Position numbers and translations under genes: made by a program | The notes under the pieces: model-generated | The model's input: only the letters and a program-made list of their open reading frames with translations | What the model was told of the DNA's origin: nothing | Databases searched by the model: none | Part shown: piece by piece, positions 12,714-15,127 of the stretch | How positions within the stretch are numbered: the first letter of the stretch is position 1 | Layout: the number at the start of each line of letters is the position of its first letter | From: Sphingomonadaceae bacterium | Lineage (GTDB): Bacteria; Pseudomonadota; Alphaproteobacteria; Sphingomonadales; Sphingomonadaceae | Reading direction: 5' to 3' | Assembly: GCA_019454625.1 (NCBI GenBank) | Contig: JACFNY010000012.1 | Coordinates: 1 to 15,127 of the forward strand | Length of the DNA stretch: 15,127 nucleotides

Positions 12714-13088
12714 TTACGCGGTTTCGCGCGTGTCGCGGCGCTCGGCGATGCGGGCCGACTTGCCGCTGCGGCCGCGCAGATAATAGAGCTTGGCGCGGCG
12801 GACGGCGCCGCGGCGCACGACCTCGATCGAATCGACGTTCGGCGAATAGAGCGGGAAGACGCGCTCGACGCCCTCGCCGAAGCTCACCTTGCGAACGGTG
12901 AAGTTGGAGCTGACGCCCTTGTTTGCGCGGGCGATGCAGACGCCCTCGAAGTTCTGGACGCGAGTGCGCTCGCCTTCGACGACGCGCACGCCGACACGGA
13001 GCGTGTCGCCCGGGCGGAATTCCGGAATGGTCTTGCCCGCGGCAAGCTTCTCGATCTGCTCGGCTTCGAGCTGCTGGATGAGGTTCAT
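12714..13088 (-). CDS. rplS: 50S ribosomal protein bL19
   Basis: Ribosomal protein bL19, at the 30S–50S interface. 124 aa, in the family range. Conserved stretches are [12 protein letters not shown] (43–54), [21 protein letters not shown] (about 63–83) and [19 protein letters not shown] (91–109). The ATG at 13088 is one base after the trmD stop, and an AAGGA lies 8 bases before it inside the trmD tail. It is last in the rpsP–rimM–vapBC–trmD–rplS run and is followed by a hairpin terminator. Confidence 0.97.
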
Positions 13089-13089
13089 C

Positions 13090-13830
13090 TCATTCGTCCT
13101 TGTTCTCACGCCGCGCGCCAGAGGGCTCGCCGACCCGAGCGCCACCACGGCGCTCCCACAGGTCCGGCCGCCTTAGCCGTGTATCGGTCTCTGCCTGGCG
13201 CTGGCGCCAGGCCCCGATCCGCGCATGATCCCCCGATCGCAGCACTTCGGGGATCGTGCGCCCTTCCCATTCATTGGGCCGGGTATACTGCGGATATTCG
13301 AGGAGGCCGCTTTCGAAGCTTTCCTCGGTTCCGCTCGAAGCGGCGCCCATTACGCCGGGAACGAGCCGAATGCAAGCGTCAAGCAGCGTCAGCGCCGCCA
13401 TTTCCCCGCCCGACAGCACATAGTCGCCGATCGACACCTGTTCGATGGGCCGTGCCTCGAACAGCCGCTCGTCGATGCCCTCGAACCGCCCGCAGAGGAT
13501 CGAGACGCCCGGCCCCGCCGCCAGCGCCCACACCCGCGCCTGCGAGAGCGGCGCGCCGCGCGGCGTCATGGCGAGGAGCGGCACGTCCGGGCGGCGCGCC
13601 AGAACGTCGTCGACGGCGCGCGACAGCACGTCCGCCCGCATCACCATGCCCGCGCCGCCGCCCGCGGGCGTATCATCGACGGAACGATGACGGTCCTTGG
13701 CGAAATCGCGGATCTGCACGGTTTCCAGCGACCACAGCCCCTCGGCGAGCGCACGCCCGGCAAGGCTGTGGCCGAGCGGACCCGGAAACATCTCAGGGTA
13801 AAGCGTGAGGACGGTGGCGGCGAAGGTCAC
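13090..13830 (-). CDS. trmD: tRNA (guanine-N1)-methyltransferase
   Basis: Methylates G37 next to the anticodon of certain tRNAs, preventing +1 frameshifting; normally essential. 246 aa. The SPOUT trefoil-knot SAM site is seen as LCGRFEGID (112–120) and [11 protein letters not shown] (133–143). The conserved YPQYTRP is at 179–185. The N-terminus [13 protein letters not shown] (8–20) fits the family, which supports the GTG at 13830 as start. That GTG overlaps the vapC stop as GTGA, and the bases before it contain no Shine-Dalgarno, so initiation probably depends on ribosomes finishing vapC. In most bacteria trmD follows rimM directly; here a toxin–antitoxin pair separates them. Confidence 0.96.
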
Positions 13831-14210
13831 AGCGGCAGCGTCCAGTTCTCGACCCTGAGGCCGGGAATGTCGGCGAAATCGGCTTCGTTGTTGGTGATGA
13901 CGATCGCATCGAGGCTGAGCGCATGTGCAGCCAGCAGCCGGTCAAATCGCCCTCGCCGGAACGGCAGCGTCGCATAAGCGCGCGCCGCGGCTTCATCGAA
14001 GGGAAGCAGCGGAATGACGTCGATGAAGGCGTTCAGAACCTCCATCGGCGGCAGCTTGCCGTTCGCAGAGCCAAGCAGGATTTCAGCGAAGTTTACCGCC
14101 GAGATCACAACCGAACCGGGTTCACGCGCCTCAAGACGGACGCGCAGCGGAAGATGCTGCCCGGTCATTGCGTAGACCGCGCAGTCCGCATCAATCAGCG
14201 CGAGCTTCAT
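13827..14210 (-). CDS. vapC: VapC-like PIN-domain toxin (ribonuclease)
   Basis: A 127 aa PIN-domain protein of the VapC toxin group, expected to be a Mg2+-dependent RNase inhibited by the antitoxin next to it. Acidic residues of the family are in place: Asp7 in LIDAD, Glu43 in NFAEILLG, Asp90 in [11 protein letters not shown], and Asp111 in the TNNEADF motif (106–112) before IPGLRVENW (115–123). All four look intact, so it should be active. The usual DTN at the first site reads DAD here. The ATG at 14210 overlaps the vapB stop by ATGA and the stop overlaps trmD by GTGA. Some VapC toxins cut tRNA anticodon loops or rRNA; its target is not predictable from sequence. Composition is less GC-rich than its neighbours in sampled stretches. 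Confidence 0.88.
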
Positions 14211-14476
14211 TCAGAATCCGACCGGTCTTTTCGTTCCCAGACGCGCGGCGGATCGTCGAAATCCTCGCGGGGCGGCACGGTCAGCCACGGCGCCTTGCCC
14301 CAAAAGCCGCTGACGTCGATCTTCCCCGGCTTCGCCGGTGCAGGCTCGAACGCGAAATGCCCTTGCTCCTCGCGCAGCACCATCACGTCGCCGTCCTTGA
14401 GGCCGAGTTCCTTCGGCAGGCGCAGCGCCACCGAATTGCCCGACTTGAAGACCTTGGCCCTATATTCCTTGCCCAT
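14207..14476 (-). CDS. vapB: VapB-like antitoxin, SpoVT/AbrB domain
   Basis: An 89 aa antitoxin with an N-terminal AbrB/MazE-type swapped-hairpin DNA-binding domain, AKVFKSGNSVALRLPKELGL (7–26), and a longer C-terminal tail rich in Pro, Trp and charged residues (about 50–89) that should wrap around the toxin. Two ATGs are adjacent at 14479 and 14476. GGAG lies 4 and 7 bases before them respectively, so I favour 14476; the difference is one Met. It begins about 30 bases after the rimM stop and directly precedes vapC with a 4-base overlap, antitoxin first as usual. It probably represses transcription by binding the GTATATAC repeats just upstream. Confidence 0.88.
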   Translation of the reverse strand: MGKEYRAKVFKSGNSVALRLPKELGLKDGDVMVLREEQGHFAFEPAPAKPGKIDVSGFWGKAPWLTVPPREDFDDPPRVWERKDRSDSE

Positions 14477-14487
14477 CATGCAGCTCC

Positions 14488-14530
14488 GTATATACGGGCA
14501 GTATATACTAGGGGAGGAAAGCCGGATCAA
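14488..14530 (-). promoter_or_regulatory. Probable vapBC promoter with twin GTATATAC operator
   Basis: Two copies of the self-complementary octamer GTATATAC lie at 14488–14495 and 14501–14508, 13 bases apart start to start. On the minus strand TTGATC (14530–14525), a 17-base spacer and TATATA (14507–14502) form a plausible sigma-70-type promoter (4 of 6 matches in each hexamer, exact 17 spacing). One octamer covers the -10, the other the expected start site. The upstream half lies inside rimM, whose TAG stop overlaps one octamer. Autorepression by VapB or VapBC at such repeats is the usual pattern for the family; binding here is inferred. Confidence 0.65.
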
Positions 14531-14993
14531 GGACGATGCAGGTGTCCGCCTCGGGCACAGCATCGGCGTTGAACGGCACCATGAAGCGCTTGCCGTCCGG
14601 CTGTTCGATTTCGAGGATGTCGCCGGCGCCATAGTTTTCCACGGCGAAGACCGTGCCCACGGCCGCGCCGTCCGTGGTGACGACGGCAAGCCCGATCAGG
14701 TCGGCGATGTAGACTTCGCCCTCGCCCGGCGGCGGCAGCGCGTCCCGGTCCACGGTGAGTTCGCTGCCGCGCAGCGCCTCCGCGGCGTTGCGGTCGGGCA
14801 CTTCGGCGAAGCGGGCGATGACGCCTTTCGGCGTATCCTTCGCGGCCTTCAGCGTGAGCGTGCGGCCGCTTGCTTCGAAGGTCTTGAAGGCGCGGAAGCT
14901 ATCGAAGCTGTCGGTGAACAGCTTCAGCCGCACCTCGCCGGTCACGCCGTGCGCGCCGATCACGGCAGCAAGCGTGACCCGGCGGGTGGACAT
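14508..14993 (-). CDS. rimM: 16S rRNA-processing / ribosome maturation factor RimM
   Basis: Assists maturation of the 30S head by binding ribosomal protein uS19. 161 aa, slightly short but normal for alphaproteobacteria. The N-terminal RimM domain (about 5–85) begins with AAVIGAHGVTGEVR (9–22). The C-terminal PRC-barrel domain (about 93–160) contains VYIADLIG (94–101) and the conserved end motif MVPFNADAVPEAD (138–150). The ATG at 14993 is 3 bases after the rpsP stop (TAA–AGC–ATG). The stop is TAG, and the final codons overlap a proposed promoter for the downstream vapBC genes. Confidence 0.96.
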   Translation of the reverse strand: MSTRRVTLAAVIGAHGVTGEVRLKLFTDSFDSFRAFKTFEASGRTLTLKAAKDTPKGVIARFAEVPDRNAAEALRGSELTVDRDALPPPGEGEVYIADLIGLAVVTTDGAAVGTVFAVENYGAGDILEIEQPDGKRFMVPFNADAVPEADTCIVLDPAFLP

Positions 14994-14996
14994 GCT

Positions 14997-15127
14997 TTAC
15001 TCAGCCTTTTCGGCTTCGTCGGCCGCAGGCGCGGCTTCGGCGGCGGCCTCCGCCGGAGCTTCCGGAGCCACGGCTTCGGCAGCGGCTTCCTCGTCGGCGG
15101 CCTCGGCCGGCACTTCCTCGGCAACCA
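14997..15127 (-). CDS. rpsP: 30S ribosomal protein bS16, C-terminal part (runs off the window)
   Basis: Only the last 42 codons and a TAA stop are present; the gene continues past the right edge. What is visible is a low-complexity tail almost entirely of Ala, Glu, Pro and Val, ending in DEAEKAE. The folded bS16 domain itself is outside the window, so the name rests on this tail, which resembles the extension on bS16 of sphingomonads and relatives, and on the following rimM–trmD–rplS genes, the standard order. It ends 3 bases before rimM. Confidence 0.82.
   Translation of the reverse strand, partial: VAEEVPAEAADEEAAAEAVAPEAPAEAAAEAAPAADEAEKAE

Follow-up and report, generated by a model that had tools for sequence, protein, structure and literature searches.

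Our analysis identifies a clade of VapBC toxin-antitoxin pairs that is docked at trmD, whose specificity cores are exchangeable and whose operator is near-unique; it is both real and broader than an earlier note on the same DNA had stated. One member lies in a 15,127-nt stretch of Sphingomonadaceae DNA (the window). As judged from sequence, the clade is marked by a fixed position, a conserved operator and promoter, allele turnover, core exchange and purifying selection within allele classes. We hold with moderate confidence that a polymorphic VapBC is kept at a fixed docking site upstream of trmD in Sphingomonadaceae and that its autoregulated promoter also feeds trmD-rplS. Chromosomal toxin-antitoxin pairs are usually viewed as drifting accessory genes; a fast-turnover VapBC clade found almost only before one essential gene amounts to a natural experiment on their persistence, in which allele classes in near-identical backgrounds are open to direct comparison, and it suggests that a toxin-antitoxin promoter may take over, or share, the expression of essential translation genes. 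A topic search of the open-access literature, judged largely by title, found no description of a trmD-docked VapBC clade.

In the window, rimM, vapB, vapC, trmD and rplS all have open frames and all lie on the minus strand (Table 1). The open reading frames and the window sequence bear out the earlier description: the AbrB-type vapB, which is intact, and the PIN-type vapC lie between rimM and trmD, in the same direction and with two 4-base overlaps, of which ATGA (14207-14210) joins vapB to vapC and GTGA (13827-13830) joins vapC to trmD. What that description omitted is the 21-base operator and the promoter overlapping it; the last base of the rimM TAG stop (14508-14510) is the first base of this operator.

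Table 1. Features of the trmD locus in the window, listed in the direction of transcription after rimM
Feature	Position	Strand	Basis
rimM	14508-14993	-	NCBIfam TIGR02273, E 8.1e-36
-35-like hexamer TTGATC, 17 nt before the -10, within the rimM 3' end	14525-14530	-	sequence
operator GTATATAC-TGCCC-GTATATAC, 21 bases	14488-14508	-	exact-site search of 296 genomes
-10-like TATATA, inside the first operator box	14502-14507	-	sequence
Shine-Dalgarno-like GGAG of vapB	14484-14487	-	sequence
vapB, AbrB/MazE-type antitoxin, 90 aa	14207-14479	-	sub-cut-off profiles, position, conserved partner
vapC, PIN-domain toxin, 127 aa; D7, E43, D90, D111	13827-14210	-	Pfam PF01850, E 1.6e-9; alignment
trmD, tRNA (guanine37-N1)-methyltransferase, 246 aa, GTG start	13090-13830	-	NCBIfam NF000648, E 1.5e-87
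rplS (ribosomal protein L19), downstream of trmD	12714-13088	-	Pfam PF01245, E 2e-48

The toxin assignment is supported by a match of VapC to the Pfam PIN family above its cut-off (38.8 versus 23.6 bits) and by its acids, which the earlier note had described as all present: in an alignment with 36 relatives D7, E43 and D90 are invariant and D111 is nearly so (at least 90%). VapB scores under the cut-off with the AbrB-type MazE_antitoxin family (21.1 versus 24.7 bits) and equally so with a rival, UreE_N (22.9 versus 26.9 bits), so its assignment as antitoxin follows from its position and its partner vapC. Neither protein matches a PADLOC anti-phage model at E 0.01. From sequence we infer a VapBC-type (type II) toxin-antitoxin module, with toxicity and neutralisation both putative. 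In NCBIfam the two proteins come closest to the VapB and VapC models of the tRNA(fMet)-endonuclease type, and profile searches with VapC find 14 distinct PDB sequences among solved relatives (best E 2e-27). With tRNA(fMet)-specific VapBC (NF047863, NF010285; PDB 9h6a, 3tnd, 6sd6, 5ecd, 5ecw, the last being S. flexneri VapC according to an excerpt of PMC7180214) the pair shares the common PIN acids, overlapping genes and a putative AbrB-type antitoxin; it differs in scoring below the curated cut-offs (70 versus 140 bits for the VapC equivalog and 46.7 versus 143 bits), in being locked to trmD and in having an exchangeable core. Another system that combines an AbrB-type VapB with a PIN toxin is Rickettsia felis VapBC2, solved on DNA (PDB 3zvk), to which VapC is matched by profile with E 1.3e-22 and VapB only with E 0.1. 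We know of no trmD linkage for Rickettsia felis VapBC2.

Matches to VapC (E<=1e-10) occur in 39 of 296 Sphingomonadales genomes, the source genome included, with one match per genome, and in 37 of these 39 the pair sits at trmD. Thirty-eight of the positive genomes belong to the family, where G289 is the exception to the position upstream of trmD; the 39th, G007, is from another family and has its vapC away from trmD. Since only 37 of the 213 Sphingomonadaceae genomes in the sample (counted from listings) carry the pair at trmD, it is dispensable in the family. In a collection of named genomes we found 335 VapC relatives, and among the best 80 of them trmD lies beside vapC in 79 (the exception, L172, is described below), a fraction biased by the use of trmD-linked proteins as query, by the restriction to the best 80 of 335 and by partial overlap with the 296-genome sample (107 distinct entries once identical pairs are removed). 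These 80 include Sphingomonas, Sphingopyxis, Novosphingobium, Blastomonas, Sphingobium, Croceibacterium, Pelagerythrobacter, Sphingorhabdus and other genera. The spacing of vapC to trmD is -4 in 23 of the 37 trmD-linked copies, and in G233 as well by a second reading; the other 13 copies have 2 to 1819 nt between the two genes. Seven of these 13 spacers measure 274-349 nt, each with a reading frame of ~90-115 codons, and the spacer frames before trmD in L008, L010, L020, L026, L036, L098 and L104 look unrelated, some being membrane-like. In one locus (L039, genome G214) trmD is immediately preceded by a vapC belonging to the clade, with no recognisable vapB; this vapC is possibly an orphan, or its antitoxin very divergent.

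The operator is as closely tied to the locus as the genes are. It consists of GTATATAC-N5-GTATATAC directly 5' of vapB and overlaps the -10 of the candidate promoter; each GTATATAC box is itself palindromic, so that two dimers could bind side by side. The exact site is present in 30 of the 296 genomes of the order, once in each and always 5' of a trmD-linked vapB (sites being reported on both strands because they are palindromic), and in none of the 257 order genomes lacking a VapC match, while a control with the reversed pattern was found in a single one of the 296 genomes searched. The exact site is absent from seven of the 37 trmD-linked carriers. Among the 81 loci of the named set plus L192, 62 have it exactly, 10 with one mismatch and 1 with three; 5 are without a site at <=4 mismatches in the searched span and 3 lie near a contig end. 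Of 98 distinct loci, 76 have a -35-like hexamer (at least 4/6 match to TTGACA) with 15-17 nt separating it from the downstream TATATA of the first box, versus 7 and 11 of 98 at control distances. An overlap with the rimM stop requires TA immediately ahead of the operator, and 37 of the 98 loci have it. A generic promoter scan of 13000-15127 found no promoter, and RNA structure at the operator showed no excess stability (z 0.18). In VapBC systems in general, VapB represses its own promoter, as an excerpt of PMC4803016 states. By analogy with such systems, the conserved double palindrome over the -10 is a putative autoregulatory operator, and VapB would repress the promoter that it overlaps.

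In Sphingomonadaceae the pair sits in a variable region. That rimM and trmD are normally adjacent, as the earlier note had it, holds for seven other families: in all 20 genomes tested from them the two genes lie near each other, with 8-192 nt separating the hits, and vapBC was found beside trmD in none. It does not hold for Sphingomonadaceae, where only 6 of 42 non-carrier loci with a measurable interval have <=5 nt and the rest up to 3.3 kb. The non-carriers derive from 51 family loci without vapBC at trmD, fetched down the TrmD similarity list and hence non-random. Intervals in carriers reach 5.2 kb, with the larger cargo mostly between rimM and vapB. In ten representatives this cargo consists of unrelated genes, e.g. 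for an oxidoreductase, a serine hydrolase, a LysR protein, a phosphoesterase, a nitrilase and a GGDEF protein. Its commonest member is a reverse-strand pyridine-nucleotide oxidoreductase (~301-317 aa; a cluster of 19), exemplified by L102:3732-4640 (minus strand) with 18 relatives in other loci. Among 27 carriers for which we read both genes plus a longer stretch of DNA, 15 have one or more reverse-strand frames between rimM and vapB, as called by our own codon model and with a forward frame between the reverse frame and vapB in four of the 15; these make read-through from rimM unlikely as the only source of trmD mRNA.

Losses of the pair leave little behind. G273, which shares 98.6% DNA identity over trmD-rplS with the carrier G171, is without an intact vapBC and holds the only convincing relic (by blastn and by eye), a frameshifted vapC 3' remnant. 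A two-gene module of ~53-56% GC (L085, 1344-2379, minus strand) lies between this remnant and trmD and has no Pfam and no PADLOC match. In 51 loci (from 50 of the 257 VapC-negative genomes plus G289) a search for vapBC relics gave four weak matches (E 0.003-0.009), none of them convincing, and the same 51 non-carrier intervals yielded no operator-like site at <=4 mismatches. For losses without relics, recombination of the whole interval fits as well as deletion.

The history of the toxin departs from that of its neighbours. A tree of TrmD+RplS from 88 genomes, of which 37 have vapC at trmD and 51 do not, was built by a quick method and tracks genus with 27 changes, the minimum possible, and vapC presence on this tree requires at least 22 changes. 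The VapC tree (39 rows) has 22 genus changes, with a minimum of 15 and a shuffled mean of 26.1; as 0 of 200 shuffles were as low, some genus signal is left, mostly in group g2, with g6, g16, g21 and g10 scattered. AU tests on 36 rows (G289, G007 and G214 excluded), for groups picked after the tree was seen, reject the clades expected under vertical descent for g10 (p 0.0018), G249+G283+G132 (4e-5) and g21 (1.3e-6), with far lower values for g16 and g6. This discordance with genus supports the earlier suggestion of a horizontal history of the pair, which is neither universal at this spot nor congruent in its tree, as an ancestral resident would be. Recent direct transfers appear to be few in the sample, as among 5253 pairs just 4 have a vapC identity of at least 0.78 (codons 1-80) together with a trmD identity <0.82. 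Cross-group cases include L139/L179 (vapC 0.82, trmD 0.71) and G209/L164 (0.90 and 0.80).

How alleles are exchanged can be seen in close relatives. Maps of congeners with flanks 87-93% identical reveal an unalignable core of 256 bp (G249/G283), 378 bp (G203/G065) or 501 bp (G097/G035), and in G080/G236 a core of 470 bp lies between flanks that are 75 and 89% identical. Third-position identity was compared in close pairs whose alleles are swapped (trmD 0.87-0.97; 55 pairs, non-independent): in vapC codons 1-80 it is 31-44%, as in distant pairs (36-44%), whereas in codons 109-123 it is 70-79%, like trmD codons 1-60, versus 55-58% in distant pairs. Of the clusters of close relatives, 8 of 14 contain a swap at trmD identity 0.87 and 3 of 8 at 0.90. 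Over 105 loci, distances in VapC 1-80 correlate with VapB 39-90 (r=0.82) and scarcely with VapB 1-38 (0.15) or TrmD (0.17). This pattern, together with the core maps, indicates that the exchanged unit looks like the toxin plus the toxin-facing half of VapB, while the DNA-binding half and the junction with trmD are kept; in sequence terms, a core of ~250-500 bp that appears to comprise the C-terminal part of VapB and most of VapC. At the protein level and over all pairs, VapC 109-123 tracks VapC 1-80 (r=0.33) over TrmD (0.17), so the 3' anchor is visible only in close pairs and at the DNA level. Of six pairs compared, four give a vapC dN/dS of 0.05-0.09 and the two more divergent ones give 0.13 and 0.37, which marks vapC as a maintained gene.

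These data bear differently on the ways in which such a locus may have arisen. The earlier note saw a foreign VapBC that had entered the operon of the source lineage once and was hard to lose since its removal endangers trmD. G262, from the genus of the source, has a serine hydrolase gene in the interval and no vapBC there, as this scenario would have it, and vapC is indeed A+T-richer than trmD; the counts per 60 bases quoted in the note (25, 24, 20, 16) are exact. Against it, vapC GC is below trmD GC in 103 of 103 loci (means 0.609 versus 0.662), so composition cannot date the arrival of vapC and loses its value as a sign of foreign origin. The same arrangement and operator recur across many genera, which leaves a one-off insertion in the source lineage without support, and frequent gain and loss, including absence from the near relatives G262 and G273, tells against the notion that the pair is hard to lose. 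To our minds, this scenario is highly improbable. We regard as very improbable that the pair descended vertically and that the C-terminal part of VapB and VapC diversified very fast with no exchange between species: VapC does change faster than TrmD, and similar vapC alleles in diverged backgrounds are as rare as noted above, but genus clades are rejected by the AU tests, identity breaks abruptly at core edges flanked by 87-93% identity, dN/dS within allele classes is as low as 0.05-0.09, and the cross-group pairs exist. To an assembly artefact we give next to no credence: the source genome is a fragmented metagenome-assembled one (677 contigs, 78% complete), but the arrangement recurs in the single-contig genomes G005, G198, G200, G203 and G233 and in named isolates.

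A more serious contender, albeit one we doubt, is that the rimM-trmD space is simply a tolerated variable site and vapBC one selfish passenger in it, with a promoter of no meaningful role for trmD and a position that is fixed only because recombination needs conserved flanks. The many unrelated genes in the interval, the at least 22 changes in presence and the many relatives that live without the pair all speak for it. It leaves unexplained, however, why the carrier genomes hardly ever have a VapC of this clade at another place (one match per genome) when other passengers share the interval, and why vapC so often overlaps trmD by four bases (23 of 37) with larger cargo usually upstream of vapB.

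The docked, polymorphic VapBC that we favour would work as follows. VapB or VapBC would bind the two GTATATAC boxes, the first of which contains the -10, and repress its own promoter. Transcription would run on over the vapC/trmD overlap, and the VapBC promoter would thus add to the expression of trmD-rplS; this is most plausible at loci where genes on the reverse strand part rimM from vapB. Alleles may be replaced by homologous recombination, anchored on one side in the operator and vapB 5' end (or in DNA further upstream) and on the other in the vapC 3' end and trmD; anchoring in conserved flanks would explain why a mobile pair re-arrives at the same place. Diversity at the toxin-antitoxin contact might be kept by selection, e.g. 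against cross-neutralisation by mobile elements or phages. VapC itself would cleave a tRNA anticodon stem-loop, as the solved proteins nearest to it do. There is a parallel in type I restriction specificity genes, which have a fixed site, conserved ends and an exchangeable specificity core. The pair shares all three traits with them; it differs in being a two-gene toxin-antitoxin module in which exchange cuts inside both genes, so that the antitoxin keeps its DNA-binding half.

Tentatively, and with more doubt than conviction, we may go further and envisage an addiction module turned replaceable control cassette, in which one VapB and one exact operator per genome would govern toxin, antitoxin, TrmD and L19 from a single autoregulated promoter, the specificity core being hot-swapped between species with the regulatory end and the trmD junction fixed. 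TrmD methylates G37 in the anticodon loop. If the cassette reading were true, the freeing of VapC would be coupled to the derepression of trmD on one and the same substrate, a tie between VapC target and TrmD chemistry that we offer as a suggestion only. It starts from the cutting of anticodon stem-loops by tRNA-type VapCs, as described in an excerpt of PMC7180214.

As for vehicles of the pair, phage carriage was rejected: viral contigs yielded only three distant VapCs, 111 viral stretches contain the exact operator sequence, of which the 80 examined with family profiles gave no vapB and no vapC, and phage records gave just five weak matches. Carriage by plasmids was dismissed too, with 1381 records all under 60% identity and the best being the same trmD locus. 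This best record, an 880-kb replicon labelled plasmid (L192; NZ_CP155749, 761452-767814), has ffh-rpsP-rimM-vapBC-rplS together with a trmD reading frame that is missing from the plasmid gene table. On a 6-kb contig from a bin labelled Burkholderiales (L172, 1-4477), vapBC occurs with the exact operator and no trmD and adjoins a gene for a large polyvalent protein (LPD39). The VapC encoded there is 89% identical to that of the trmD-linked locus L142, and this contig may belong to a carrier element or be chimeric.
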